From the NCBI RefSeq assembly GCF_014203225.1, contig NZ_JACHIO010000001.1, positions 248,001 to 312,000 on the forward strand: DNA of 64,000 nt. The letters are read 5' to 3'. Below the pieces are notes generated by a model that ran no database searches, was not told the DNA's origin, and saw only the letters and a list, made by a program, of their open reading frames with translations. Within the stretch, counting starts at the first letter, position 1, and each line of letters opens with the position of its first letter. This document shows positions 3,662 to 55,595 of this stretch, piece by piece. The stretch comes from Granulicella mallensis. Lineage in GTDB: Bacteria > Acidobacteriota > Terriglobia > Terriglobales > Acidobacteriaceae. The position numbers were made by a program, and so were the translations under genes.

Positions 3662-4762
3662 TTAGTGCTTCGGCTCCGACTCAGCCAACAACTCTACAAG
3701 GTAGTCCTTCCAAATAGCGGCCGCTGTATGTGTGCCATGGCCGCGCGTCACATCGGAGATGGGAATCAACACGAACTTTGCGTGTGGCATCTCCTGCACC
3801 TGCTTCTGCGCGATGCCAAGCTCCGGCGGGTTGATGAAGTCATCCGCGGAGTTGATCCACATCACAGGCACCTTGATCTTTTTCAGGTTCGCACTCGGAT
3901 CGTAGTTCCTCGAAGCGTCGACGTAATAGATCATGTTGTTCGCGTCGGTTGAAGCGACCGTGCGGTCCAGATACTTGTCGACATACCCCTCCGCAGCCAC
4001 TCGTGTGGGGTAGAGCTTCTGCATCTGCAATGGCGCGGACCCCATGATCAGCAACATCTCGTTTGCACTGCGCAGGCCTTCGACAGGCTCACTCGTGTAC
4101 TCGCCCTCTTTCCAGTTTGGGTCCCGCTCGATGTTCTCAATCGCCATATAGCGCGTCATCCGATTCCGCCCGGCAAGTGCGACCGCATTACACGCCAGCG
4201 GCATCAAGGCATCCATGAAGTCAGGATAGGTCTCGCCCCACACAAAACTCTGCATGCAGCCCATCGATGTGCCAAGAATCAGCCGAAGGTGGTCAACGTG
4301 CAAACCTTCCAGCAGCATCTGGTGCTGTGAGCGAACCATGTCGTCGTAGTCATAGTGCGGAAACCGCATGTGCAGTCCATCGGACGGCTTGGAGGAGCCG
4401 CCTTGTCCGATGTCATCCGGAAAGATCAGGAAGTACTTCGTGATGTCCAGCGGTTGACCGGGCCCAAAGAGAACCGTGGAGAACTGCGGCGCAAAGAGCG
4501 TGTGCTCGTCGCCGCCGGTGCCGTGAAGCAGGAGGACTGCATTGTCGACGAGCCCTGCGCTATTCCGATGCGGTGACCCCAGCGTGAGGTAGTGCAGGTT
4601 AAGCTCAGGAATTGTCTCGCCAGTACCGAAGTGAAAGTCCTTCGCCGTATACACGCCCTGCACGCCTTTATAGGCCGGAGTAGCAGGTGTTTGAGCGGAT
4701 AGGGCCTGTGCAGCGACAAGCGAGGAGAGACTGAAGACTGTGAGTGAGAGAAGGTGGCGCAC
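3662..4762 (-). CDS. Secreted alpha/beta hydrolase, homoserine O-acetyltransferase (MetX)-like family
   Basis: 366 aa from a GTG at 4762, which is preceded by TAGGAG at proper spacing and begins a clean signal peptide (RHLLSLTVFSLSSLVAAQALSAQ region). The frame stays open to 4891 but that extension has no coding look. The nucleophile elbow is GTSMGCMQ, the acid is in NSADDF, and the histidine is in RGHGTHT, so a full Ser-Asp-His triad is visible. MetX-like fold proteins with signal peptides are usually annotated only as alpha/beta hydrolases; a periplasmic location argues against a role in methionine synthesis. It is convergent with the galactanase gene and lies downstream of two DUF1080 genes on the same strand. 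Substrate unknown. Confidence 0.8.
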   Translation of the reverse strand: MRHLLSLTVFSLSSLVAAQALSAQTPATPAYKGVQGVYTAKDFHFGTGETIPELNLHYLTLGSPHRNSAGLVDNAVLLLHGTGGDEHTLFAPQFSTVLFGPGQPLDITKYFLIFPDDIGQGGSSKPSDGLHMRFPHYDYDDMVRSQHQMLLEGLHVDHLRLILGTSMGCMQSFVWGETYPDFMDALMPLACNAVALAGRNRMTRYMAIENIERDPNWKEGEYTSEPVEGLRSANEMLLIMGSAPLQMQKLYPTRVAAEGYVDKYLDRTVASTDANNMIYYVDASRNYDPSANLKKIKVPVMWINSADDFINPPELGIAQKQVQEMPHAKFVLIPISDVTRGHGTHTAAAIWKDYLVELLAESEPKH

Positions 4763-9079: not shown

Positions 9080-9448
9080 TTTATTACCCTTAGCCATCCA
9101 AACAAGCGTCAAACCATCAATTCCTTACCATTTGAGGACTTGCTAAGAACGTGATGCTACTTTGGGATCAATCAACGTTCGTATTAACCACAACCGTGAT
9201 GCCTAGTAGCAAAAGCTATGCCATTTCAAGATTTGCAGGTATGGAAGAGTTGAAATGTGTCCTGTATTGATATCGAGATCTGGTACGTATTTGAGATTAG
9301 GTGTAACTGCCGCTCACCTATGTGACATTCGTCACATGTCACAAGCGATACGTGTGTCAAGCTCCAAGCTGGATTTTCAGGGGTCGGAGATTAGTTCCGG
9401 CCTGTATTCGGGCCCAAAGGCAAAGAACTTTCTCGTAAAGGTGGTCCA
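9080..9448. other. Divergent control region between the CadC-like regulator and the sigma-54 activator
   Basis: 369 bp without a credible gene. It contains the Crp-type palindrome at 9321-9336 and, just after it, a further TGTCACA half-site. No GG-N10-GC sigma-54 promoter with good context was found towards the activator gene. Confidence 0.6.
9321..9336. promoter_or_regulatory. Crp/Fnr-family operator, TGTGA-N6-TCACA
   Basis: The 16-bp TGTGACATTCGTCACA matches the TGTGA-N6-TCACA consensus at all ten fixed positions. It lies 113 bp before the start codon of the sigma-54 activator at 9449 and 242 bp before the divergent regulator. The Crp-type protein at 53197 has a recognition helix of the type that reads TGTGA, so it is the natural candidate binder. 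Confidence 0.72.
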
Positions 9449-10912
9449 ATGCACACTCACTTAGCGGTAATCACTGCTAGTTCTGACGATGTAGTAACTA
9501 CGCGCTGTATGTCTGTATTTGAGGCGGAGGGTCACTCCTACCAAACGATCATCGATCCACAGAAGATCCTTCTTCTGCTTCGCGATGAGCATTCATGCGA
9601 CGTCTTACTTGTTGATATGGAACTTCCGTCTTTGCGTACCGGCAGGTTTCTAGAGGAGGTGGCCAGCAAAATGGACGTATCACGGCTATGGATCATCAGC
9701 CCGATGGGGACGACCTACTGGAGAAATGACGCTGAACGATTGGGAATACGAAATGTTATCTGGAAGCCTGTGCAACGGCATGATTTTGAGCGGGTTTTAG
9801 AGACAGTTTCCGTTCGCAAAGCAGCGATATTACCGGCACCTGCCGTTAGCCAAATCTCGAGCAAGCGACACGATACGCCTTGCTACATTGAAGACTTGCC
9901 CGGTGGGCGCTACTTTCTGGCAGCATGCCCAGCCATGATGAAACTCTACGAAACGGTTTGCCTGCTTGCGGCAGTGGACGTACCGGTCCTGATTCTGGGA
10001 GAAAGTGGTGTCGGAAAGGATGTTGTCGCAGCTCTCCTCCATAAGCACTCGCTACGCTCGTCCGCCTGCTACTCGTCCTTGAACTGTGCAGCTCTGCCAC
10101 CGGATCTGCTGGAAAGCGAGTTGTTCGGATACGAGGCAGGAGCCTTTACCGGGGCGATCAAAGCGAAGGCCGGAAAGTTTGAATTGGCTGACCATGGGAC
10201 GTTGCTTCTCGATGAGATCGGAGAAATGAGTGCACCCATGCAGGCCAAGCTGTTGCACGTTTTGCAGGACGGTCGCTATTCGCGCTTAGGAGCGCGCACC
10301 GAGTCTCATGTTGACGTCCGGGTGATCGCAGCAACCAATGTCGATATCGAGACGGCGATCGCACAGAATGCCTTTCGGGAAGACCTCTATTACAGAATTA
10401 GCGCCTTTACGATAGAAATTCCTCCACTTCGGGAGCGGAGAGAAGAGATTCCCTTTTTGATTGAACAACTCGTGCTCCACCATGCTGGTAGTCTGCGCCG
10501 CGACCCTGTTTATATCTCTCCAGAGGTGATGACGTTGATGATGGAATACCGCTGGCCAGGCAACCTGAGAGAGCTTTCCAATTACGTCATTCGTATCCAG
10601 GTACTTGGCAACACAGACAGAGTCAAGGCAGACTTGGAGGAGCGTATCCGTGGAACACGTGGGATCCACGCGGCACCTGTACCAGTGGTTGGAGAGGATT
10701 CGCAGGAGATAGCTGGCATGCGATTAATTGTCCGGACCCAGAGGGATCGGACAGAAAGCCGGCTTATTCAACAGGCACTAGAGGAATCTGGTTGGAATCG
10801 CCGTCATGCCGCTGTGGATCTCAACATCAGCTACCGTTCCTTGTTGTATAAGATCCAACAGTATGGGCTAACCCAGAACCGGCATCACATGACACACGCG
10901 CGAAGCGCCTAA
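9449..10912 (+). CDS. Sigma-54-dependent transcriptional activator (bEBP): degenerate receiver, AAA+, Fis-type HTH
   Basis: 487 aa; AAGGTGG precedes the ATG. Residues 1-125 are receiver-like: LLVDMELP offers the phospho-acceptor Asp and VIWKPV the conserved Lys, but the acidic pair expected after the first strand is replaced (VITASSDD). The AAA+ domain has Walker A GESGVGKD (~residue 183), GAFTGA loop intact (231-236), Walker B LLLDEIGE, and the arginine-finger region REDLYYRI. The C-terminus (~430-475) is a Fis-type helix-turn-helix (WNRRHAAVDLNISYRSLLYKI). GAFTGA marks true contact with sigma-54. It sits at the edge of the EPS locus and no partner histidine kinase is adjacent. It probably binds the TGCAA-N4-TTGC palindromes at 11002, 17036, 23746 and 30784; that link is inference. 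Confidence 0.93.
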   Translation: MHTHLAVITASSDDVVTTRCMSVFEAEGHSYQTIIDPQKILLLLRDEHSCDVLLVDMELPSLRTGRFLEEVASKMDVSRLWIISPMGTTYWRNDAERLGIRNVIWKPVQRHDFERVLETVSVRKAAILPAPAVSQISSKRHDTPCYIEDLPGGRYFLAACPAMMKLYETVCLLAAVDVPVLILGESGVGKDVVAALLHKHSLRSSACYSSLNCAALPPDLLESELFGYEAGAFTGAIKAKAGKFELADHGTLLLDEIGEMSAPMQAKLLHVLQDGRYSRLGARTESHVDVRVIAATNVDIETAIAQNAFREDLYYRISAFTIEIPPLRERREEIPFLIEQLVLHHAGSLRRDPVYISPEVMTLMMEYRWPGNLRELSNYVIRIQVLGNTDRVKADLEERIRGTRGIHAAPVPVVGEDSQEIAGMRLIVRTQRDRTESRLIQQALEESGWNRRHAAVDLNISYRSLLYKIQQYGLTQNRHHMTHARSA

Positions 10913-11262
10913 TAATAAATTTGCTCTGTATTTCAGGACACATCACCGGTAGACCTCCAGATTTACCCCTACAACCTCGGTTTTCCAATCAACCGCAACA
11001 ATGTGCAAAAACTTGCACATTGTTGCGGTTTGAGCTATGGTTTTCCTAACGCCGAAAGACGTGGTGATACTACCGCCATGTGCAATCAGGGCTTAGGTCT
11101 GGATCTTCTCCCCTTCAGCTAAGCGCCCCCCTCCCCCTTCCCCATAGTCTCTTTAGATCAGCGTCACTGTTCCTATACGCTCACGCCTCGTAGCGTGACA
11201 CATGGGCCATCCACAGTGCGTCACGCCGGCGCTGTGTCTGAAGAGTCTTCTCCGGAGTGCAA
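10913..11262. other. Intergenic region before the first beta-helix lipoprotein gene
   Basis: 350 bp with no credible gene. It holds the large palindrome at 10991-11030, a lone TGTGCAA half-site at 11079-11085 and a pyrimidine-rich stretch at about 11125-11145. A GG-N10-GC pattern with good sigma-54 context was looked for between 11090 and 11250 and not found; the nearest patterns (around 11038 and 11062) match the consensus poorly. Confidence 0.5.
10991..11030. promoter_or_regulatory. Large palindrome containing upstream-activator-like site (copy 1: 11002-11019)
   Basis: Perfect inverted repeat, arms 10991-11008 and 11013-11030, 4-nt centre AAAC. Its inner part, TGTGCAA-AAAC-TTGCACA, has the same core and spacing as three other palindromes in the EPS locus. 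It follows the activator gene by 78 bp and precedes the beta-helix lipoprotein gene by about 240 bp. It could also fold as a terminator for the activator gene, but no U-tract follows. Confidence 0.65.
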
Positions 11263-13203
11263 ATGAAGAACATCACAATATTACTTGCCTGCCTTCTGGC
11301 AGGCACTCAACTCGGTTGCACGCAGTCGCTGTCGCCCCAAAGCAATTCTCAAACCCTCACAGCAACGCCCCCCACAGCAACAATCACCACCACCCCCAGT
11401 ACGGTAACCGCCGGCCAGTCAATCGTACTGAAATGGACAGTCACGAACGCAACATCAGTCACTATCAATGGTGAAAAAAAAGCACTCACCGGCCTCACCT
11501 TAGGAATCCCCTCAAAAAGTACTAGTTTCACACTCGTAGCGACTAATTCTACGAAGTCTGTGACCGCCGTTGCGACCGTCACGGTAAAGGCAGCGACGCA
11601 AACTACTCCGCCGCCAACAACACCACCTCCAACGACACCGCCCCCAACTACACCACCGCCAACAACAGGAAGTACCACAGCCGGTGCACCGCACATCGAC
11701 TATACCGACATTAATGTCGGATCAGGAACCGGTGGAGACAATGGCAATGGCGCTTACGTACGGATCTTTGGGGATCACTTCGGCACCTCACAAGGTAGTA
11801 GCACGGTGAAGCTTGGGGGCAATCTGGTGACAGACTGCAGCCTGTGCAGTTGGAGCAATACAGCCATCATCGCCCAGCTTGGTAGTGCAGCAACCACCGG
11901 TTCGCTCCAGGTAACTGTAGACGGACTGCCCTCCAATGGATACCCATTTACCGTCGCTCCGACGACGATCGTCTTCGTTTCGGCAAAGGGCCTCGACACC
12001 AATACCGGGACCTTTAGTGCTCCATTCAAGACGTGGAGAGCAGCCTTCAATTCGCTCACATCCAAGGACAATAGCTCACCTGCTCAAAACGCGATCATCT
12101 ACCTCGAGCCTGGCGTGGCAGTTAATGTAGATGATGGTCGGGGTTATAACGCTACTGTCTCGACAGACCTCGGAGGTAGTTCTCCGACAAAGCAACTCGC
12201 GATCGTGGGTTACCCTGGCGGAACGGTTAATGTTGGCAGTACATCTGTAGCAAATGGAATTCACGGCTGGGGAAAATACCTCACCATCGCAAACCTGACA
12301 ATCATTGGTGGCAACTCCGCCATCGACGATGAGGCTGGCAATGTCCGCATCATCAACAACAGTCTCTCTTGCCCGGCGCCACCCGCTGGACTTGGTGGCA
12401 CGGCCTGCGTGCTTGGAGAAACGGGTACACCAACGGATACATGGGTTTTTCAGGGCAACAATGTCAACAATACAGGCGGCAACGTTGATAAGACCTATCA
12501 CGCCGTTTACTTCTCTTCCAATGTGAATCATGCAGACGTTGGATGGAACAATATTGGACAGAACTTCAAGGGCTACTGCCGCAGCATTATGTTCCATGCC
12601 ACAACAGGAGCGAATCTATACGACCTTCATGTACATGACAACGTCATTACAGGCGGGTACTGCGACGGCATAGGCTTTGCATCGGTCGATCCGTCGAAGG
12701 GAGTGGTGGAAGCCTACAACAATGTGCTTTCTCACATCGCACTTGCATCGAACCCGTACGGTGTTGCAAATGAAGTCGGCATTGCAGTTAACTCCGACCC
12801 CGCTGGTTCATCAAGCGGTACTGTGCAGGTTTACAACAATACGGTTGTGGACGCTGGGCAATACACCACCGGGAACCAGAATGGCTGCTTTGGTGTGGTA
12901 ACAGCAGGGGCAGGCTTAGTCCTTACCAACAACATCTGCTCTCAAACCAGCAGTGCAGAGCCTTACATCGAATCGGGAAGCCAGAACGTAAGTGGGACAA
13001 ATAATCTGTGGTTTGGTGCAGGGACATCCCCGAGTTGGGATGCTCGGCCCGTCTCTACAAACCCGGCATTCGTCTCCACGACTAACTTCGATCTGCAATC
13101 CAATTCACCAGCGCTTAAGGCGGGATCGACTTCCAAGCTGTCCACAACAGACATCTTAGGAGACGTCCACCCGAATCCACCCGCCATTGGGGCCTACGAA
13201 TAA
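11263..13203 (+). CDS. Secreted right-handed beta-helix protein with IPT/TIG-like region, probable lipoprotein
   Basis: 646 aa from ATG 11263, five bases after GGAG; an in-frame GTG at 11257 overlaps that site and is less likely. Signal peptide runs to Cys19 (AGTQLGC), a weak lipobox. Then an Ig-like segment (~40-115), a TPPPT x4 linker (~115-135), an IPT/TIG-like region (VRIFGDHFGTSQGSSTVKLGG), and from ~residue 250 a parallel beta-helix with Asn ladders (IINNSLSC, FQGNNV, VYNNTVV, LTNNIC). Such folds occur in polysaccharide lyases and epimerases; no catalytic residues could be assigned. A close paralogue without the N-terminal Ig/linker part lies at 50055, so the two bracket the EPS genes. 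A role in polymer modification or binding at the surface is inferred. Confidence 0.82.
   Translation: MKNITILLACLLAGTQLGCTQSLSPQSNSQTLTATPPTATITTTPSTVTAGQSIVLKWTVTNATSVTINGEKKALTGLTLGIPSKSTSFTLVATNSTKSVTAVATVTVKAATQTTPPPTTPPPTTPPPTTPPPTTGSTTAGAPHIDYTDINVGSGTGGDNGNGAYVRIFGDHFGTSQGSSTVKLGGNLVTDCSLCSWSNTAIIAQLGSAATTGSLQVTVDGLPSNGYPFTVAPTTIVFVSAKGLDTNTGTFSAPFKTWRAAFNSLTSKDNSSPAQNAIIYLEPGVAVNVDDGRGYNATVSTDLGGSSPTKQLAIVGYPGGTVNVGSTSVANGIHGWGKYLTIANLTIIGGNSAIDDEAGNVRIINNSLSCPAPPAGLGGTACVLGETGTPTDTWVFQGNNVNNTGGNVDKTYHAVYFSSNVNHADVGWNNIGQNFKGYCRSIMFHATTGANLYDLHVHDNVITGGYCDGIGFASVDPSKGVVEAYNNVLSHIALASNPYGVANEVGIAVNSDPAGSSSGTVQVYNNTVVDAGQYTTGNQNGCFGVVTAGAGLVLTNNICSQTSSAEPYIESGSQNVSGTNNLWFGAGTSPSWDARPVSTNPAFVSTTNFDLQSNSPALKAGSTSKLSTTDILGDVHPNPPAIGAYE
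11605..11664 (+). repeat. Four 15-bp repeats encoding a TPPPT linker
   Basis: Four in-frame 15-bp units (each reading Thr-Pro-Pro-Pro-Thr, with silent differences) form the flexible linker between the N-terminal Ig-like region and the beta-helix part of the surrounding gene. The paralogue at 50055 lacks it. Such tracts can change copy number by slippage. Confidence 0.85.
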
Positions 13204-16940: not shown

Positions 16941-16956
16941 TGCATTTCGCCTTCCA
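16941..16956 (-). promoter_or_regulatory. Candidate sigma-54 promoter (leftward, aminotransferase operon)
   Basis: Minus-strand TGGAAGGCGAAATGCA has GG-N10-GC spacing and matches about 9 of 12 informative positions of TGGCACG-N4-TTGCW. Predicted start near 16931, about 75 nt before the ATG at 16856. The palindrome at 17036-17053 is about 113 bp upstream of it. Confidence 0.45.
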
Positions 16957-17035: not shown

Positions 17036-17053
17036 GATGCAATCAGTTGCATA
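17036..17053. promoter_or_regulatory. Upstream-activator-like palindrome, copy 2
   Basis: GATGCAA-TCAG-TTGCATA: inner arms ATGCAA/TTGCAT are a perfect inverted repeat with a 4-bp centre, the same core and spacing as copies at 11002, 23746 and 30784. It lies in the middle of the divergent region between the aminotransferase operon and the epimerase gene. A half-site TGTGCAA follows at 17058. The rest of 16857-17233 shows no credible gene. Confidence 0.68.
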
Positions 17054-17166: not shown

Positions 17167-17182
17167 TGGCAGGGCACATGCA
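17167..17182 (+). promoter_or_regulatory. Candidate sigma-54 promoter (rightward, epimerase gene)
   Basis: TGGCAGGGCACATGCA keeps GG-N10-GC spacing and matches about 10 of 12 informative positions of the -24/-12 consensus. The predicted start is near 17192, about 40 nt before the ATG at 17234 and about 148 bp from the centre of the palindrome at 17036-17053. Confidence 0.6.
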
Positions 17183-23745: not shown

Positions 23746-23763
23746 TATGCAAAGCTTTGCGTG
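23746..23763. promoter_or_regulatory. Upstream-activator-like palindrome, copy 3
   Basis: TATGCAA-AGCT-TTGCGTG keeps the TGCAA-N4-TTGC core. It lies in the divergent gap 23612-23978, about 111 bp from the predicted rightward start and about 141 bp from the leftward one. A looser partner with a 5-bp centre (TATGCAA-ACAGG-TTGCAAA) follows at 23801-23819. No credible gene is seen in this gap. Confidence 0.6.
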
Positions 23764-23839
23764 AGCTACGCAATCCGATATTCCTTCGGCGATCAAGTTG
23801 TATGCAAACAGGTTGCAAATACTTGCTCTTCTTCCTCTA

Positions 23840-23855: not shown

Positions 23856-23946
23856 AAGCTAATACCGCTCAGGAGCGGTGGCGCGGCGACTTGGCCGCCT
23901 AATTGCTATCTCCGTCATCAGGATTCTTCTGAAATTACTCAATGGA

Positions 23947-30783: not shown

Positions 30784-30801
30784 TGTGCAACGTATTGCAT
30801 A
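30784..30801. promoter_or_regulatory. Upstream-activator-like palindrome, copy 4
   Basis: TGTGCAA-CGTA-TTGCATA, identical in the first half to copy 1 and in the second half to copy 2. It begins 10 bp after the end of the GT4 gene and is centred about 106 bp upstream of the predicted start at the sigma-54 candidate 30873-30888, the usual enhancer distance for a bEBP. Confidence 0.68.
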
Positions 30802-30872
30802 GTGCAGCTGCAAATAGGTCTATTTACAAGCACTCGACGTGAATGTCCCAAGCTTTTCCCAGGTTTAATGTT

Positions 30873-30888
30873 TGGTCAGCGAATTGCC
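30873..30888 (+). promoter_or_regulatory. Candidate sigma-54 promoter of the assembly operon
   Basis: TGGTCAGCGAATTGCC has GG-N10-GC spacing and an intact TTGC at -12, with about 8 of 12 informative matches overall. Predicted start near 30899, about 22 nt before ATG 30921 and just upstream of its GAGGG ribosome site, so the geometry is good. Confidence 0.48.
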
Positions 30889-30920: not shown

Positions 30921-31592
30921 ATGAAGGTCCAGAGAAATGACTTGGGTAAAGCCGCAGCGCTACTCGCACTTTATCTCCTGTGCCACGCTGTCGGCGCACA
31001 GTCTCCTCGAGTTGAAACACCCGGATCGCATGCAATGGCCAGCGGCAGCAAGGCTACCGCAAGTTCAAACGCATCTACCACACCCCTCACCGTCGTAGAT
31101 CTCCCCATCGTAGAGCCCTACAAGATTGGCTGCGGAGACGTATTAAATATCTCGGTTTGGAAAGAGCACGACCTTAGTCCTACGGTGACAGTTCGCCCTG
31201 ATGGAAAGATCTCGATGCCTCTGGTCGGCGAGATGACCGTGACCGGACTGACACCCAACGATATTGAGCAACTGTTACGGACACGCCTCGCTAGCATCGT
31301 GGTAGATCCAAGGGTTACAGTCACAGTCGCGGAGATTCACAGCCGGATGGTCTACATCACCGGCGAGGTAGCACGCCCAGGGGCCTACCCTCTCAACTCA
31401 CCTCTGAATGTATTGCAGCTTATTGCGCAGGCTGGGGGGCTCACCCAATTTGCGGCTCGTAAAAAAATCACGGTCATTGCACCTAACTCATCTGGGGCCG
31501 GCGTAAGGCTTGACTACAACAAGCTCATTCATTCGCCTAACTCCAGCCAGGCCATGTGGCTTACACCGGGAACGACGGTGGTTGTTCCATGA
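30921..31592 (+). CDS. Polysaccharide export protein (Wza/OPX family)
   Basis: 223 aa from ATG 30921 with GAGGG upstream; the GTG/ATG-led longer frame to 30843 would overlap the promoter candidate. Signal peptide AALLALYLLCHAVGAQ. Then the export-protein domain: YKIGCGDVLNISVWKEHDLSPTVTVRPDGKISMPLVGEM, DIEQLLRTRLASIVVDPRVTVTVAEIHSRMVYITGEVARPGAYPL, and one SLBB domain (LNVLQLIAQAGGLTQFAARKKITVI). No lipobox cysteine. OPX proteins form the periplasmic or outer-membrane conduit for EPS. First gene of the assembly operon; ATGA overlap with the next. Confidence 0.93.
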   Translation: MKVQRNDLGKAAALLALYLLCHAVGAQSPRVETPGSHAMASGSKATASSNASTTPLTVVDLPIVEPYKIGCGDVLNISVWKEHDLSPTVTVRPDGKISMPLVGEMTVTGLTPNDIEQLLRTRLASIVVDPRVTVTVAEIHSRMVYITGEVARPGAYPLNSPLNVLQLIAQAGGLTQFAARKKITVIAPNSSGAGVRLDYNKLIHSPNSSQAMWLTPGTTVVVP

Positions 31593-47952: not shown

Positions 47953-49272
47953 CTAAGAATGCGACAGCGCATCCGCAGCTGGAGCCAGTTGCAGCTTTCC
48001 TCGATCTTCCAGTAATCCCTTCAACATGGCTTCGAAACGTTTCGCGGCCTGCTCCACCGTAAACTCCTCCACCGCTCTCTTCGCACCCGCTCGTCCCATC
48101 CTGCTACGAAGTTCAGAGTCAGTACAAAGTTTATGAACGGCCGCAGCAATCGACTCGACGGAATCCCCATCGCAACGCAGCCCGGTGATTCCGTCCTCGA
48201 TCGCAGCAGCGGTCCCTCCTGCCGTTCCACCAATCACGGGAAGACCGCAGGCATTCGCCTCTAGAAAAACCACTCCAAAACCTTCTGTATCGCCATCGAT
48301 CTCGCGATTTGGTTGCAGAAAGAGGTCCGCGGCCTGGTAGAGCCCGGCAACCGCATCGTCTTCCACAAATCCCCTAAAGTCGACTCGGCCTTCGATCCCC
48401 AACTCCTTCGCCAGACGAACTAGATTCCCCTGTTCTTTCCCGCGCCCGGCGATGACATAAATCCAGTTCTCAGGCAGCCCGTTCGCCGTATGAAGATGAG
48501 CCAAAGCTCGCAGCGCTTGATCGATCCCCTTTCGCGGGTCCAGCCGCGCGAGCGTCAGGATCACACATTTGTCTTCCCACCCGATCACTCGCCGCAAGGC
48601 CGTTCGATCCTCCGGCACACGAAACCTTCGTGTATCCACAAAGTTCGCCAACAACTTCATCTTGTGGGGATCGCAGCCTGACAACTCACAACTTAGCGAA
48701 GCGGTGTAGTCGCTGACCGCGATGTTCAAGGCCGCCGACCGCAGAGAGCGCATCTGCACCCATCGCATCCAATGCATCAGCACCGCCGGACGCACCTGCA
48801 TCGTCAGTTCTTCCCCATGCAAATAGTTCACCATCGGCGTCCCCTCTGAATGCCGCATCGCTAACCATGCCGCCGAGTAGGTTCCTCCGCACACAATCAA
48901 ATCCGGCTGCAACTCCCGCACCAGGGCGTCCCATTCGCTTCGGCCGCGCTGAAAGAATCCATACAGTTGCACAAGCAAGCCGACCAAAGGGAGATCCCGC
49001 AGTCCGCGCCTCTTCCCCGCCGCGTGGCGCAGATGAAACTCAAAGGCGTCGATTCTTCTTACCTCAAATCCGAAGTCGCGTCGCGCGATCTCATCCCACC
49101 CGGTCGCGTCTTCGTCACGCAAACCATGGCGGTCAGCTACGACTACGATTCGATAGCCGGGAAGCCGCTGCAGCAAACCAAGATATACCTGCACCACGCC
49201 ACCATAGTAGACAGGCGGAAAGTAAGGCGCCGCAAACAGTAGCACAGGACGAGCGTCCGTCCCAGCGTTCAA
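47953..49272 (-). CDS. Family 4 glycosyltransferase
   Basis: 439 aa, starting at a TTG (49272) in a TTGA overlap with the acetyltransferase gene upstream. N-terminal PVLLFAAPYFPPVYYGGVVQVYLGLLQRL; PDLIVCGGTYSAAWLAM; then ILTLARLDPRKGIDQALRAL, YVIAGRGKEQGNL and FLQPNREIDGDTEGFGVVFLEANACGLPVIGGTAGGTAAAI with the E-x7-E region. A good GT-B enzyme, likely the last sugar-adding enzyme of the locus. TTG starts are rare, but the coupling to the preceding stop makes this one credible; the next in-frame ATG would cut into the first strand. Confidence 0.9.
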   Translation of the reverse strand: MNAGTDARPVLLFAAPYFPPVYYGGVVQVYLGLLQRLPGYRIVVVADRHGLRDEDATGWDEIARRDFGFEVRRIDAFEFHLRHAAGKRRGLRDLPLVGLLVQLYGFFQRGRSEWDALVRELQPDLIVCGGTYSAAWLAMRHSEGTPMVNYLHGEELTMQVRPAVLMHWMRWVQMRSLRSAALNIAVSDYTASLSCELSGCDPHKMKLLANFVDTRRFRVPEDRTALRRVIGWEDKCVILTLARLDPRKGIDQALRALAHLHTANGLPENWIYVIAGRGKEQGNLVRLAKELGIEGRVDFRGFVEDDAVAGLYQAADLFLQPNREIDGDTEGFGVVFLEANACGLPVIGGTAGGTAAAIEDGITGLRCDGDSVESIAAAVHKLCTDSELRSRMGRAGAKRAVEEFTVEQAAKRFEAMLKGLLEDRGKLQLAPAADALSHS

Positions 49273-49838
49273 TTCACACCGCCCGTCGATAAAACACTTG
49301 TAACGACAGGCGTTTGTCTCTGGCTCACCACCTGCGCCGGCACTCCCATTACCGTCGAATACTCAGGCACATCCTGATTCACCATCGAGTTCGCTCCGAT
49401 CCTCGCTCCATCTCCCACGATGATCGGCCCTATGAGCACAGCACCCGTGCCGATGAACACGCCATCTCCAACGATGGGAACACCGATGCCGCCGACGCCC
49501 CGCGTTCCCATCGTCACCCGATGCGCGAGATCGCAGTTTTTCCCAATCACGACCTCGGGATGCAAGGTGATACCTCCTGCATGCGCAATCAGTAGCCCCG
49601 GACCAATCTTCGCTCCCACATTCAGCCTCATCTCCAACAAAACCTCAAGAACTAAAGCCCCTGCGGAATGCAGAATACGGAACGGCATTGAAAAGACTCT
49701 CGATCTGTCTCTTCTATAAATGACTCGTCCTAAGCGATACCAGAATATGCACCACACCGCAGGATTGCGCAAAATCGTGCAAGTACCTTCTCCATAGGCA
49801 CGATAGCGAGACATATCCTGCTTAAAGTCATTCAGCAT
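49269..49838 (-). CDS. Serine O-acetyltransferase-like hexapeptide acyltransferase
   Basis: 189 aa. N-terminal helical part (DFKQDMSRYRAYG, WYRLGRVIYRR) followed by left-handed beta-helix repeats: IGPGLLIAHAGGITLHPEVVIGKNCDLAHRVTMGTRG, with the histidines typical of CysE-type active sites, then IGTGAVLIGPIIVGDGARIGANSMVNQDVPEYSTVMGVPAQVV. In EPS loci such proteins O-acetylate sugars instead of serine (compare the EpsM/colanic acid acetyltransferases). First gene of a two-gene leftward unit with the best sigma-54 promoter match of the window 93-108 bp upstream of its start codon. Confidence 0.88.
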   Translation of the reverse strand: MLNDFKQDMSRYRAYGEGTCTILRNPAVWCIFWYRLGRVIYRRDRSRVFSMPFRILHSAGALVLEVLLEMRLNVGAKIGPGLLIAHAGGITLHPEVVIGKNCDLAHRVTMGTRGVGGIGVPIVGDGVFIGTGAVLIGPIIVGDGARIGANSMVNQDVPEYSTVMGVPAQVVSQRQTPVVTSVLSTGGVN

Positions 49839-49930
49839 CGTAAGCCGTACTCCTATAACTTCAGGGCCTCTCAGAGTCTTCGACCGCGAGATGTAACAAC
49901 ATCCTTAGCGGAGATCTTTACTTGAAGTTC

Positions 49931-49946
49931 TGCAAGTGACGTGCCG
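49931..49946 (-). promoter_or_regulatory. Near-consensus sigma-54 promoter (leftward, acetyltransferase/GT4 operon)
   Basis: Minus-strand CGGCACGTCACTTGCA matches TGGCACG-N4-TTGCW at 11 of 12 informative positions, only the first T being C. Predicted start near 49921, giving a leader of about 83 nt before ATG 49838. No TGCAA-N4-TTGC palindrome was found within the 200 bp upstream. Confidence 0.75.
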
Positions 49947-50018
49947 AATCCTCTCTCCTCTACTATGTTTCGCAATACTCGATCTTTTTATTCGGTGAGA
50001 CCGCCGTATTGAGCTCTT

Positions 50019-50034
50019 TGGCCGCTAACCTGCA
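50019..50034 (+). promoter_or_regulatory. Weak candidate sigma-54 promoter (second beta-helix gene)
   Basis: TGGCCGCTAACCTGCA has GG-N10-GC spacing and about 8 of 12 matches, but the predicted start (about 50045) would fall inside the AGGTGAG ribosome site of the gene at 50055. Kept only because its gene is the paralogue of the other EPS-flanking gene. Confidence 0.25.
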
Positions 50035-50054
50035 GCGGAACAGGTGAGAGACTT

Positions 50055-51710
50055 ATGCGGATCACTTCTTACCGGGGGGATGTCCTACCCCTATTCGTGC
50101 TCATCGTATTCATTGCGAGTTGCGCAAGGGTAATCCACCCCAGCGCATTGGCCATGTCGTCGGACACGAGCGGCACGACCAGCACAGGAAGTCCGCCTCA
50201 CATCAACTACACCGACATCAACGTCGGCTCGAACACCGGCGGAGATACAGGAAACGGCGTCTACGTTCGGATCTTCGGGGCGAACTTTGGTTCGTCGCAA
50301 GGCTCAAGCCTGCTCACGTTGGGCGGAAAACTCATCACGAATTGCAGGCTCTGCTCCTGGACCAACAATCAAATCATTGCCCAGCTGGGACCAGCCGCAA
50401 AGACCGGAGACATCCATGTCGACGTCGCTGGTGCCCATTCGAATGGCGTACCCTTCACCGTCACCCCCACAACAATCCTCTTCGTCGCTGCAAACGGATC
50501 AGACTCAAACCGGGGAACCTTTGCCACGCCCTTCAAGACCTGGCGCGCTGCCTTTAACTCCGTCACCGATACTGACTCACACCCTCCGAAACAAAACACT
50601 GTCATCTACCTCGAACCTGGAGCCGTTGTGAACTTCGACGATGGACGCGGATATAGCGCAGTCCTATCGACCGATATCGGTGGCACTTCGCCCATCAAAC
50701 AGCTCTCCATCGTTGGATTCCCCGGTGGCACCGTCAACGTCGGCAGCACCTCTGTCACAGACGGCGTTCATGGCTGGGGTTCCTATCTCACCATCGCGGA
50801 TCTCACCATCGTTGGAAAGGTCTCCGCGATCGACGCTGAGAAAGGGAATGTACGCATCATCAACAACAGCCTGTCCTGTCCCTCACCTCCAACCGGCGTC
50901 GGAGGAGCCGCCTGCATCCTTGCTGAAACCGACACCCCAACCGACAGTTGGGTCTTCCAGGGCAACAATGTCCATGACACCGGGGGTAACGTCGACAAGA
51001 CTTATCACGCCATCTACTTCTCTTCAAATGCCAATCACGTGGAGTTCGGGTGGAACAACATCGGTGCAAACTTCCTGGGATACTGCCGCAGTGTCCTCTT
51101 CCACGCCACCACAGGCGCCAACCTCTTCGATCTGCACGTGCATGACAATCAGATCGCCGGCGGCTACTGCGACGCTATCAGCTTCGCCTCGGTCAATCCA
51201 TCCGCAGGCACCGTCGAGGCCTACAACAACGTAATCACGCACGTCGCTATCGCTTCAAATCCCTATGGAACCGCAAACGAAGCCGGCATCGCCATCAACT
51301 CCGATGCCTCGCCAGGAGCGAGCGGCACCGTCTACGCCTACAACAACACGGTTGTCGACGCCGGCGAATACACCATCGGCCACCAGAACGGCTGCTTTGG
51401 CGTGGTCAGCCCAGGGGTATCTCTCGTCCTTACAAACAACATCTGCATGCAGCCCAGTGCCGCTCAGCCGTACATCGAACCGAACAGCACAGGAGTCAGC
51501 GGCACCAACAATCTATGGTACGGAGCGGGACCTGCACCCAGGTTCGATCCACAACCAGTCATTCTTGCTCCACGCCTGGTATCGGCAACCGGCTTCGCCC
51601 TGCAGGCAGGATCTCCCGCCCATGCCGCGGGGACGATGACTCGGGTATCTATCTTCGACATCATCGGGACACAGCGAAGTCCCGCCCCGTCCATCGGCGC
51701 CTACGAGTAG
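50055..51710 (+). CDS. Secreted right-handed beta-helix lipoprotein, paralogue of the 11263 gene
   Basis: 551 aa. Lipoprotein signal with a good lipobox IASC ending at Cys23. After a short linker come HINYTDINVGSNTGG and an IPT/TIG-like segment (VRIFGANFGSSQGSSLLTLGG), then the parallel beta-helix with Asn-rich turns (IINNSLSC, FQGNNVHDTGG, AYNNTVV, LTNNICMQ). By eye it is about two-thirds identical to the protein at 11263 across their shared ~520 residues, and lacks that protein's Ig/TPPPT extension. Catalytic residues were not identified. Its position at the right border of the EPS locus, same strand as the left copy, suggests a duplicated accessory factor for the polymer. Confidence 0.82.
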   Translation: MRITSYRGDVLPLFVLIVFIASCARVIHPSALAMSSDTSGTTSTGSPPHINYTDINVGSNTGGDTGNGVYVRIFGANFGSSQGSSLLTLGGKLITNCRLCSWTNNQIIAQLGPAAKTGDIHVDVAGAHSNGVPFTVTPTTILFVAANGSDSNRGTFATPFKTWRAAFNSVTDTDSHPPKQNTVIYLEPGAVVNFDDGRGYSAVLSTDIGGTSPIKQLSIVGFPGGTVNVGSTSVTDGVHGWGSYLTIADLTIVGKVSAIDAEKGNVRIINNSLSCPSPPTGVGGAACILAETDTPTDSWVFQGNNVHDTGGNVDKTYHAIYFSSNANHVEFGWNNIGANFLGYCRSVLFHATTGANLFDLHVHDNQIAGGYCDAISFASVNPSAGTVEAYNNVITHVAIASNPYGTANEAGIAINSDASPGASGTVYAYNNTVVDAGEYTIGHQNGCFGVVSPGVSLVLTNNICMQPSAAQPYIEPNSTGVSGTNNLWYGAGPAPRFDPQPVILAPRLVSATGFALQAGSPAHAAGTMTRVSIFDIIGTQRSPAPSIGAYE

Positions 51711-54098: not shown

Positions 54099-55595
54099 CT
54101 AGCGAGACGAAGAGCAGCTAAAATTCGATGCCTCGTCGATGCTGCCAACACCCTTGTAGCGGGCAACCTGAGGATAGGGACAGAGAGGGCGGGTCCGGTC
54201 GATCTTACCCGCAGTCTTGTGGGCAGCGATGATCTGCTCAGGAGCCTTGCCTAATTCCACCCATTGCTCCATCACGTTGATCTTGTCGAAATTATCGGGG
54301 CCCTCGCCACCTGAGCAGTGTGCCATGCCGGGCGCCATGAAAAGACGGACCCAGTTTTGTTCTGTAACTTTGCTCTCTTCCAGCACCGCCTTGTAGAACT
54401 CAACGCTAGAGCCCGGGGCTACCTGCTGGTCGGCCCAGCCGTGATAGAGGAGCAGCTTCCCGCCGTGTTTCGCGAACGCTGTAAGGTTTGGATTGAGTTC
54501 GTCGATATCCTTATCGATTGCGTGCGCCTTGGCAGAATCACGTTCAAGGTCGAAGGTGCGCCAGTCCCAATTGGGATCCTGGTACACAACGTAGCGGAAC
54601 TCATCCAGAAACAGATCCGCTGGTTGAGGCCCACCAGCGAGGCGGCCCCAGCGAAGTTCAGTTCCCGGCTCCACCCGTGGAAATAGAATCTGCCCTGTCC
54701 TGGTCGCAACGGGACTCGTTATAGTTTGGGCGGTTTGGACCTGACGTGTTGTAAGGCAATCGATGCCGTCCGCCGCTTTGCATTGCAAGCTCTTGAAGTC
54801 CACATTACAACTCTCTGGAGCTTCGATTAGCCCGTCCTTCAATCCGTCCTTTGCATCGCAGGCCTCAAGAACAGCGCGATGGATCATGGGGTACTTCGCC
54901 GCGGGGATATAGGCTTCAGGATCCTTAAAAGTCTGAACAGCCAACTCGAGCGCCCAGGAGTTTCGGCGGATGTTGGCTGGATCGCCCGCGATAATGCCGT
55001 TGAATTCATCCGGATAACGGGAGGCCTGCAGCAGACCTTCGCGTCCTCCGCCAGAGCAGCCGTTCCAAAAAGAGTAGCGCGGGTCACGACCGTAGAACGC
55101 ATGGATGAGGGTCTTCGCTTCGACGGTCATCTCATGATCGGCGCGGTAGGCGAAATCGATGAGCTTCTCCGGATGGTTAACAATGAACGAAGCACTTGGG
55201 CCAGTGTGGCCATCGTCGGTGGCGCTTGTTGCATAGCCTCGACGTAGCGCGTCGGCCATCTCTCCGTAGGAGATGGAGCCACCCCAGCCGCCACTGCCTA
55301 CGGCGATAAACTTACCGTTCCAGCGTACGGTGGGAAGCCATACTTCGATGCGAATGTCTGAGTCGGAAGTCGGCTTCAGATCTGCAGCGACACGACAGAA
55401 AGATGGCAGATCGCGAAGCGCATTTTCGCTTCCAGCAGGAGTCAAGTTGCCAGCTTCCACAATCTTTGCAAACGTGATTGATACTTTCGGCGAAACGAGT
55501 TGCAGAAGCCTCTCACAAGGTTCTGCGTATAGCGCAGCCGGCAGAAGCATCATGAGAAATAGAACAATCTTGTAGGGCTTGCGTCCAGTAAACAT
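54099..55595 (-). CDS. Secreted tannase/feruloyl esterase family protein
   Basis: 498 aa from ATG 55595, which begins a signal peptide (YKIVLFLMMLLPAALYAEP); no clear ribosome site, and a TTG at 55634 is an alternative. Family landmarks: CxxL after the signal (PCERLLQL), nucleophile serine in FWNGCSGGGREGLLQASRYP, IIAGDPANIRRNSW, late Asp in LLYHGWADQQVAPGSSVEFY and His in MAPGMAHCSGGEGPDNFD; the C-S-x and H-C cysteines form the CS-D-HC motif of the family. It cleaves ester links of gallic or ferulic acid in plant material. Calcium-binding loop residues (DAKDGLKDGLI) are present. It points towards use of plant polysaccharides, as the GH53 and GH13 enzymes of the window do. Confidence 0.92.
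   Translation of the reverse strand: MFTGRKPYKIVLFLMMLLPAALYAEPCERLLQLVSPKVSITFAKIVEAGNLTPAGSENALRDLPSFCRVAADLKPTSDSDIRIEVWLPTVRWNGKFIAVGSGGWGGSISYGEMADALRRGYATSATDDGHTGPSASFIVNHPEKLIDFAYRADHEMTVEAKTLIHAFYGRDPRYSFWNGCSGGGREGLLQASRYPDEFNGIIAGDPANIRRNSWALELAVQTFKDPEAYIPAAKYPMIHRAVLEACDAKDGLKDGLIEAPESCNVDFKSLQCKAADGIDCLTTRQVQTAQTITSPVATRTGQILFPRVEPGTELRWGRLAGGPQPADLFLDEFRYVVYQDPNWDWRTFDLERDSAKAHAIDKDIDELNPNLTAFAKHGGKLLLYHGWADQQVAPGSSVEFYKAVLEESKVTEQNWVRLFMAPGMAHCSGGEGPDNFDKINVMEQWVELGKAPEQIIAAHKTAGKIDRTRPLCPYPQVARYKGVGSIDEASNFSCSSSR

Follow-up and report, generated by a model that had tools for sequence, protein, structure and literature searches.

Does a near-perfect sigma-54 promoter that stands without a recognisable enhancer still serve its gene, and what might activate it? 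The question is raised by the element CGGCACGTCACTTGCA at positions 49931–49946 (minus strand) of the 64-kb stretch of Granulicella mallensis DNA analysed here (the window), a sigma-54-like −24/−12 element with a predicted transcript start near 49921. We consider, with a probability of about one half, that it represents a sigma-54 promoter that has been parted from its enhancer and is perhaps now activated from solution. This reading is built on sequence comparison, above all with the same gene in a second genus of the family.

The unit in front of which the element lies comprises two leftward genes, a hexapeptide acetyltransferase (49269–49838, minus strand; Pfam Hexapep, PF00132), 98% identical in the close relative G002, and an overlapping GT4 glycosyltransferase (47953–49272, minus strand; Pfam PF00534 and PF13439). 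The first base of CGGCACGTCACTTGCA is 108 nt, and its last base 92 nt, from the acetyltransferase ATG at 49838. Scored against the textbook sigma-54 consensus, TGGCACG-N4-TTGCW, the element matches 11 of 12 positions and has the GG-N10-GC core; a re-scan returned the sequence, location, strand and score given in the preliminary description. That description also called it the best site in the window, which holds for the textbook consensus, by which it is the only 11/12 GG-N10-GC site and the runners-up reach 10/12, and fails for a matrix derived from promoters of the lineage, by which it ranks 9th to 11th. An imperfect 18-nt inverted repeat, recognised by eye, spans the −12 element. Elsewhere in the window, TGGCATAGCTTTTGCT at 9208–9223 (minus strand) scores 10/12, about 95 nt 5′ of a winged-helix-domain gene with β-propeller repeats, and ranks only 100 by the lineage matrix.

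One alternative is that the match is fortuitous, and that in the window lineage the unit lacks sigma-54 control and is transcribed from some other, unrecognised promoter; we regard this as possible, although on the unlikely side. Sites of at least 11/12 were present in 29 of 60 Markov windows, with an average count at 11/12 of 0.58 per 64-kb window, a frequency that favours chance; on the 64-kb scale an 11/12 match is in itself unremarkable, and what counts is its placement in a noncoding sense leader. The number of such sites expected in the noncoding sense leaders of the window is 0.015, calculated with our own gene list in which several genes were given later start codons, and this placement argues against a chance match. 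So does the finding that the element is identical in G002, within an invariant run of 29 nt (49921–49949), although this conservation has little power because G002 is the sole close relative and is 95.6% identical to the window species. A sigma-70-like site was not found in 49700–50120, an absence that says little since only 0.4 such sites would be expected there.

The wider distribution of the pattern is also consistent with chance. GGCACGN4TTGCW is not enriched genome-wide (11 occurrences, compared with 27 for the reversed control pattern), nor across the 28 genomes of the genus (179 compared with 182, summed over per-genome rows). Four of the 11 genomic sites, 49931–49946 among them, fall outside ORFs of at least 100 aa, and the same 15-mer is found in G002 at all four of these, compared with two of the seven ORF-internal sites. 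The other three non-ORF sites lie 87 nt 5′ of a DUF421-like gene, 92 nt 5′ of an EgtB-like gene that adjoins another activator gene, and in front of a conserved noncoding RNA (gene names assigned by eye).

The last of these is an observation in its own right. The 12/12 sigma-54 promoter (L035/L159, C6:92454–92468, minus strand) is followed about 260 nt downstream by the RNA, whose 3′ hairpin core was found in 26 of the 61 genomes searched, all 26 belonging to the 28 of the genus. In the 12 loci examined out of these 26, a GG-N10-GC element of 9–12/12 with an invariant GATTGC is present 153–251 nt upstream of the core in every case, and an OmpH-like gene (by eye) is within reach of the RNA in nine. 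Paired changes can be seen by eye in the hairpin; the L035 copy has no Rfam match at the gathering threshold.

Scoring by promoters of the lineage is less favourable to the element than the textbook consensus. The matrix was made from 21 distinct promoters judged trustworthy by us, which were picked before the target was scored, contain near-identical sequences of related species and omit loci L211 and L212. With it 49931–49946 takes 11th place in the window (9th if the matrix is restricted to promoters lying elsewhere in the genomes), and it scores lower than every one of the 21. The base preceding its GG is C, whereas T is found in 23 of 23 trusted promoters (21 distinct). Both features favour a chance match, and the C weakens the case for membership among sigma-54 promoters but does not exclude it, T being no absolute requirement. 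Among the best ten window sites by the outside-window matrix, five lie in leaders, namely 49931–49946 and four promoters that are linked to palindromes of the form TGCAA-N4-TTGCA; three of these four qualify as leader sites only when translation is taken to begin downstream of the first ATG, at starts (∼16856, 17235 and 30921) chosen from protein sequences.

The palindromes are most simply discussed together with their presumed ligand. Sigma-54 is encoded in the genome of the window species, and the cluster itself encodes an enhancer-binding protein (9449–10912, plus strand; Pfam PF00158 and PF02954) with an intact GAFTGA motif and a receiver-like N-terminal region that falls below the Pfam cut-off. 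We infer that this activator binds the TGCAA-N4-TTGCA palindrome. The strongest copy in the cluster (10994–11027, core 11004–11017) has perfect 15-bp arms around a 4-nt centre, is unchanged in G002 at all 34 bases, and has no GG-N10-GC above 7/12 around it in 10700–11300. This repeat sits 81 nt past the stop of the activator gene and might double as a terminator, yet it lacks a T run. A second palindrome, at 17038–17051, lies between divergent promoters at 16941–16956 (minus strand) and 17167–17182 (plus strand), both in leaders only with the later starts of our choice. Two more (23748–23761 and 23814–23827) precede a promoter at 23892–23907 (plus strand), and another, at 30786–30799, precedes that of a wza-like export gene (30873–30888, plus strand), which counts as a leader site with a start at 30921, our choice, but not with one at 30843.

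Four other exact palindromes exist in the genome outside the window. One of them, on contig C4 (L065, C4:298794), has a counterpart in G002 (L063) with similar flanks, outside the cluster; in one species it precedes a cellulase-like gene (by eye) by ∼500 nt, and in the other the sequence farther downstream is different. We set it aside as a supporting case, given this downstream difference in G002, where the spacing of the sole candidate promoter is also broken (by eye).

Nothing comparable is present at the acetyltransferase promoter. The spacer that separates the gene from the divergent gene to its right (49839–50054; 203 of 216 bases identical in G002) contains neither a TGCAA-N4-TTGCA palindrome nor an IHF-type site, for which the consensus WATCAA-N4-TTR was used, and both are missing at this promoter in the window species and in G002 alike. 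The earlier statement that no TGCAA-N4-TTGC site lies near the element is borne out, the nearest with at most one mismatch being 4.8 kb away at 54784, within a coding frame. Within 260 bp upstream of 49931–49946 the best approach to the palindrome has three mismatches, and in G002 four. By a palindrome matrix whose five training sites score 18.6–28.6, the best value in the spacer is 4.7, a score equalled or exceeded in 40 out of 400 random ∼240-nt sequences. The place at which a palindrome would be expected from the usual spacing in the other genus, transferred by hand, is 50066–50079, inside the neighbouring β-helix gene, and nothing similar is found there. A diverged nearby palindrome, the first of three options raised in the preliminary description, is not supported by matrix scores, nor by mismatch counts in either species. 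Two individual candidates were rejected: 50368, the best non-training site nearby, falls from 11.4 with the five-site matrix to 2.2 with a 24-site matrix, and 49768, inside the acetyltransferase gene, keeps its half-sites in G002 and scores only 0.8. The region 49839–50200 holds seven short inverted-repeat pairs, compared with roughly four expected by chance on a rough estimate.

Close relatives of the acetyltransferase are few. A match at E 1e-25 exists in 10 of the 28 genomes of the genus, near only in G002 (98%), the next being at most 47% identical; a scan of genome contigs found remote relatives only, at up to 49% identity over part of the protein. None of 15 more distant homologues (L003–L017) has a site of at least 9/12 in the region scanned ahead of the alignment, up to 420 nt in length. 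When 299 genomes of the class were searched, the gene was found, besides the window species and G002, at 61–65% identity in six genomes of one other genus, with an additional homologue at 50% in another family (L168). Among 19 genomes of that other genus, eight carry the gene at 61–65% and one a 42% homologue (L213), while ten are unmatched at E 1e-40.

In all eight of these other-genus orthologues, a complete arrangement precedes the gene. TGCAA-N4-TTGCA is exact in seven and has one mismatch in the eighth (L211), an IHF-type site is present in every case, 41–42 bp from the palindrome start (52 in L211), and a GG-N10-GC element of 8–10/12 follows, with 126.5–129.5 bp between palindrome centre and −24 GG in seven and 139.5 bp in L211. 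The IHF-type consensus occurs merely one to three times per 60-kb stretch, with one occurrence in the acetyltransferase spacer in six of six. When the first six genomes are aligned, the palindrome, the IHF-type site and the promoter emerge as conserved blocks against a mean spacer identity of 60%. What singles out these promoters is their constant spacing, because GG-N10-GC sites of at least 8/12 are common in the other-genus stretches (∼1 per 1,000 strand positions) and three of the eight loci (L165, L167 and L212) hold a second 8/12 site closer to the gene. Neither L168 (50%) nor L213 (42%) has such a palindrome, or a GG-N10-GC of at least 8/12, upstream.

In all six mapped genomes of the other genus, a related activator, 56–60% identical and with GAFTGA intact, is encoded at the far end of the cluster, immediately outside the mapped stretches and at a distance of 32–34 kb to the acetyltransferase gene. 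A second activator of about equal similarity (55–57%) is encoded elsewhere in three of these genomes. No palindrome reaching a score of 11 lies less than 1.5 kb from the activator gene in any of these six cluster copies. Because palindrome, IHF-type site and promoter lie upstream of the acetyltransferase, and the activator gene ends the same cluster, the acetyltransferase looks like a target of the cluster activator in the other genus.

Gene order in the cluster is shared. Twenty-two genes, from a hexapeptide gene (20496) to the acetyltransferase, are in the same order in the six mapped genomes, except for one extra β-helix-like gene in the other genus and the small orf133, which was not found in G201; this 60-kb map covers six genomes, to the exclusion of L211 and L212, takes the best protein for each place at a threshold of E 1e-15, and has some end genes beyond some of the stretches. 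Palindromes, exact or by matrix, occur at the same units in both lineages (aminotransferase, UDP-sugar dehydrogenase/oxidoreductase and wza). At the oxidoreductase gene of the other genus (for example at position 4639 of the G174 stretch) an exact palindrome lies inside the protein-aligned span and a weaker one before the gene; in the window both precede it, a contrast that hints at enhancer turnover.

The acetyltransferase end of the cluster differs between the lineages. In the other genus the gene is divergent from a giant β-helix gene (1177–1965 aa by first open start), with the palindrome 87–90 nt before this presumed start in three genomes; the remaining three have a first possible start codon that precedes the palindrome. 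In the window its divergent neighbour (50055–51710, plus strand) encodes a 551-aa β-helix-like protein with a lipoprotein-like start (both by eye), for which Pfam recognises only a TIG domain. This is a copy of a 648-aa β-helix-like protein (11257–13203, plus strand), ∼39 kb from the acetyltransferase, which has a palindrome in front of its gene. The copies are 69% identical over 504 aa and group together as sisters in a phylogeny (UFBoot 88, SH-aLRT 99), the 551-aa copy lying on a long branch.

Taken together, these comparisons suggest that 49931–49946 would drive the acetyltransferase/GT4 unit of an exopolysaccharide cluster as a promoter separated from its enhancer. At the same gene in the other genus the full arrangement would consist of a palindrome bound by the activator, an IHF-type bend site and a promoter ∼127 bp away; in the window lineage, palindrome and bend site may have been parted from the promoter by the rearrangement that duplicated the β-helix gene. 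The closer textbook match of the remaining promoter may suffice for firing on contact with the same activator, arriving from solution or binding weakly, activation from solution at this site being a proposal that rests on precedent. Promoter score and palindrome state do vary together, from 8–9/12 where the palindrome is exact, through 10/12 where it has one mismatch (L211), to 11/12 where there is none (the window species), and this series hints at compensation by the promoter, in few independent lineages. The spacer of L211 (genome G342), with its one-mismatch palindrome, retained IHF-type site and 10/12 promoter, is a possible intermediate. Against this reading, the other-genus promoters are themselves weak, at 8–10 of 12. 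Loss in the window lineage and gain in the other genus fit equally, because L168, from another family, has neither element. The window promoter begins 108 nt 5′ of the start codon, whereas in the other genus the distance to the aligned protein is 40–71 nt; this dissimilarity of position favours a chance match and makes descent of 49931–49946 from the other genus's promoter a matter of conjecture.

The two remaining options of the preliminary description, a distant site and a different activator, both still stand, and the comparison adds a fourth, an enhancer missing here yet present at the same gene in the other genus. The cluster activator could in principle drive 49931–49946 from a remote palindrome, for which 11004, 39 kb away, is the strongest candidate: it is the best by matrix, is wholly conserved in G002, precedes the other β-helix copy and has no good promoter of its own. 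We think this very unlikely, as 39 kb far exceeds the usual 100–150 bp (PMC7057263) and the activator could work from solution without 11004. Fainter still is the chance of the fuller scenario, in which gene duplication would have split the pair, 11004 would activate the enhancer-less promoter over ∼39 kb, and the promoter would have been strengthened to offset the distance.

Control by a different activator, acting on a real sigma-54 promoter through its own unrecognised site, also appears improbable to us. The preliminary description had proposed a search for other enhancer-binding protein genes outside the window, and this search found five strong domains, two with intact GAFTGA. In all, the genome encodes six strong sigma-54-activator domains and seven further weak matches. 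Three of these six retain GAFTGA, namely the 9449–10912 protein, a GAF-type protein on contig C12 and a PspF-like protein on contig C3 (the latter names by eye), while the others have GAFTSA, GAGPGG and GAFTDA in its place. The intact motif makes the C12 and C3 proteins the natural candidates, and the C12 gene adjoins a 12/12 promoter whose distance to the next gene, 92 nt, equals that of 49931–49946 to the acetyltransferase. On the other hand, no motif common to those leaders was seen (by eye only), and the nearest acetyltransferase orthologues bear the palindrome of the cluster activator. The C12 promoter (L038/L161, C12:172872–172886, minus strand), directly 3′ of the GAF-type activator gene and 92 nt before the EgtB-like gene (names by eye), is unchanged in G002.

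If 49931–49946 is indeed a promoter parted from its enhancer, this gene offers a natural experiment on bacterial enhancers, with the palindrome exact in seven genomes, decayed in one and absent in two (the window species and G002), and makes the survival of sigma-54 promoters without a nearby enhancer a testable question. The parts are all of known kinds; the point of interest is the broken pairing of promoter and enhancer. Among the matches listed for literature on sigma-54 promoters or the RpoN regulon, nothing concerned Acidobacteria.

Classical sigma-54 promoters, as summarised in PMC7057263, usually have their enhancer 100–150 bp upstream, with an IHF-assisted loop. The present element resembles them in its GG-N10-GC core, and the other-genus orthologues in having an enhancer-like palindrome, an IHF-type site and a promoter, whereas the window promoter has neither palindrome nor IHF-type site. 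Activation without a nearby site is described in PMC1976401 for Rrp2 at Borrelia rpoS, for Helicobacter FlgR, and for NtrC or DctD in excess. The likeness to Rrp2 and FlgR lies in a sigma-54 promoter with no recognisable activator site nearby; the differences are that the activator here appears to have sites elsewhere in the cluster, that relatives keep the palindrome, and that the window promoter is a predicted one. The palindrome itself is identical to the HrpS site of hrpL, TGCAA-N4-TTGCA at −138/−125 with GG-N10-TGC (PMC8657755), at a spacing similar to that in the other genus, and the motif is also matched in PMC6855506. In contrast to HrpS, the setting here is a polysaccharide cluster, with an activator whose N-terminal region is receiver-like, below the Pfam cut-off. 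The HrpS-type palindrome thus occurs at an exopolysaccharide cluster in another bacterial group, probably Acidobacteriota. Such a setting has parallels, the bacterial exterior, including exopolysaccharide, being a known theme of sigma-54 control (PMC3162934). PrsK/PrsR and RpoN control exopolysaccharide/PEP-CTERM genes (PMC9850573), and the present cluster is like that system in pairing sigma-54 with an activator of the Fis type whose gene neighbours those for polysaccharide, a likeness of gene context to the PrsR family, TIGR02915.
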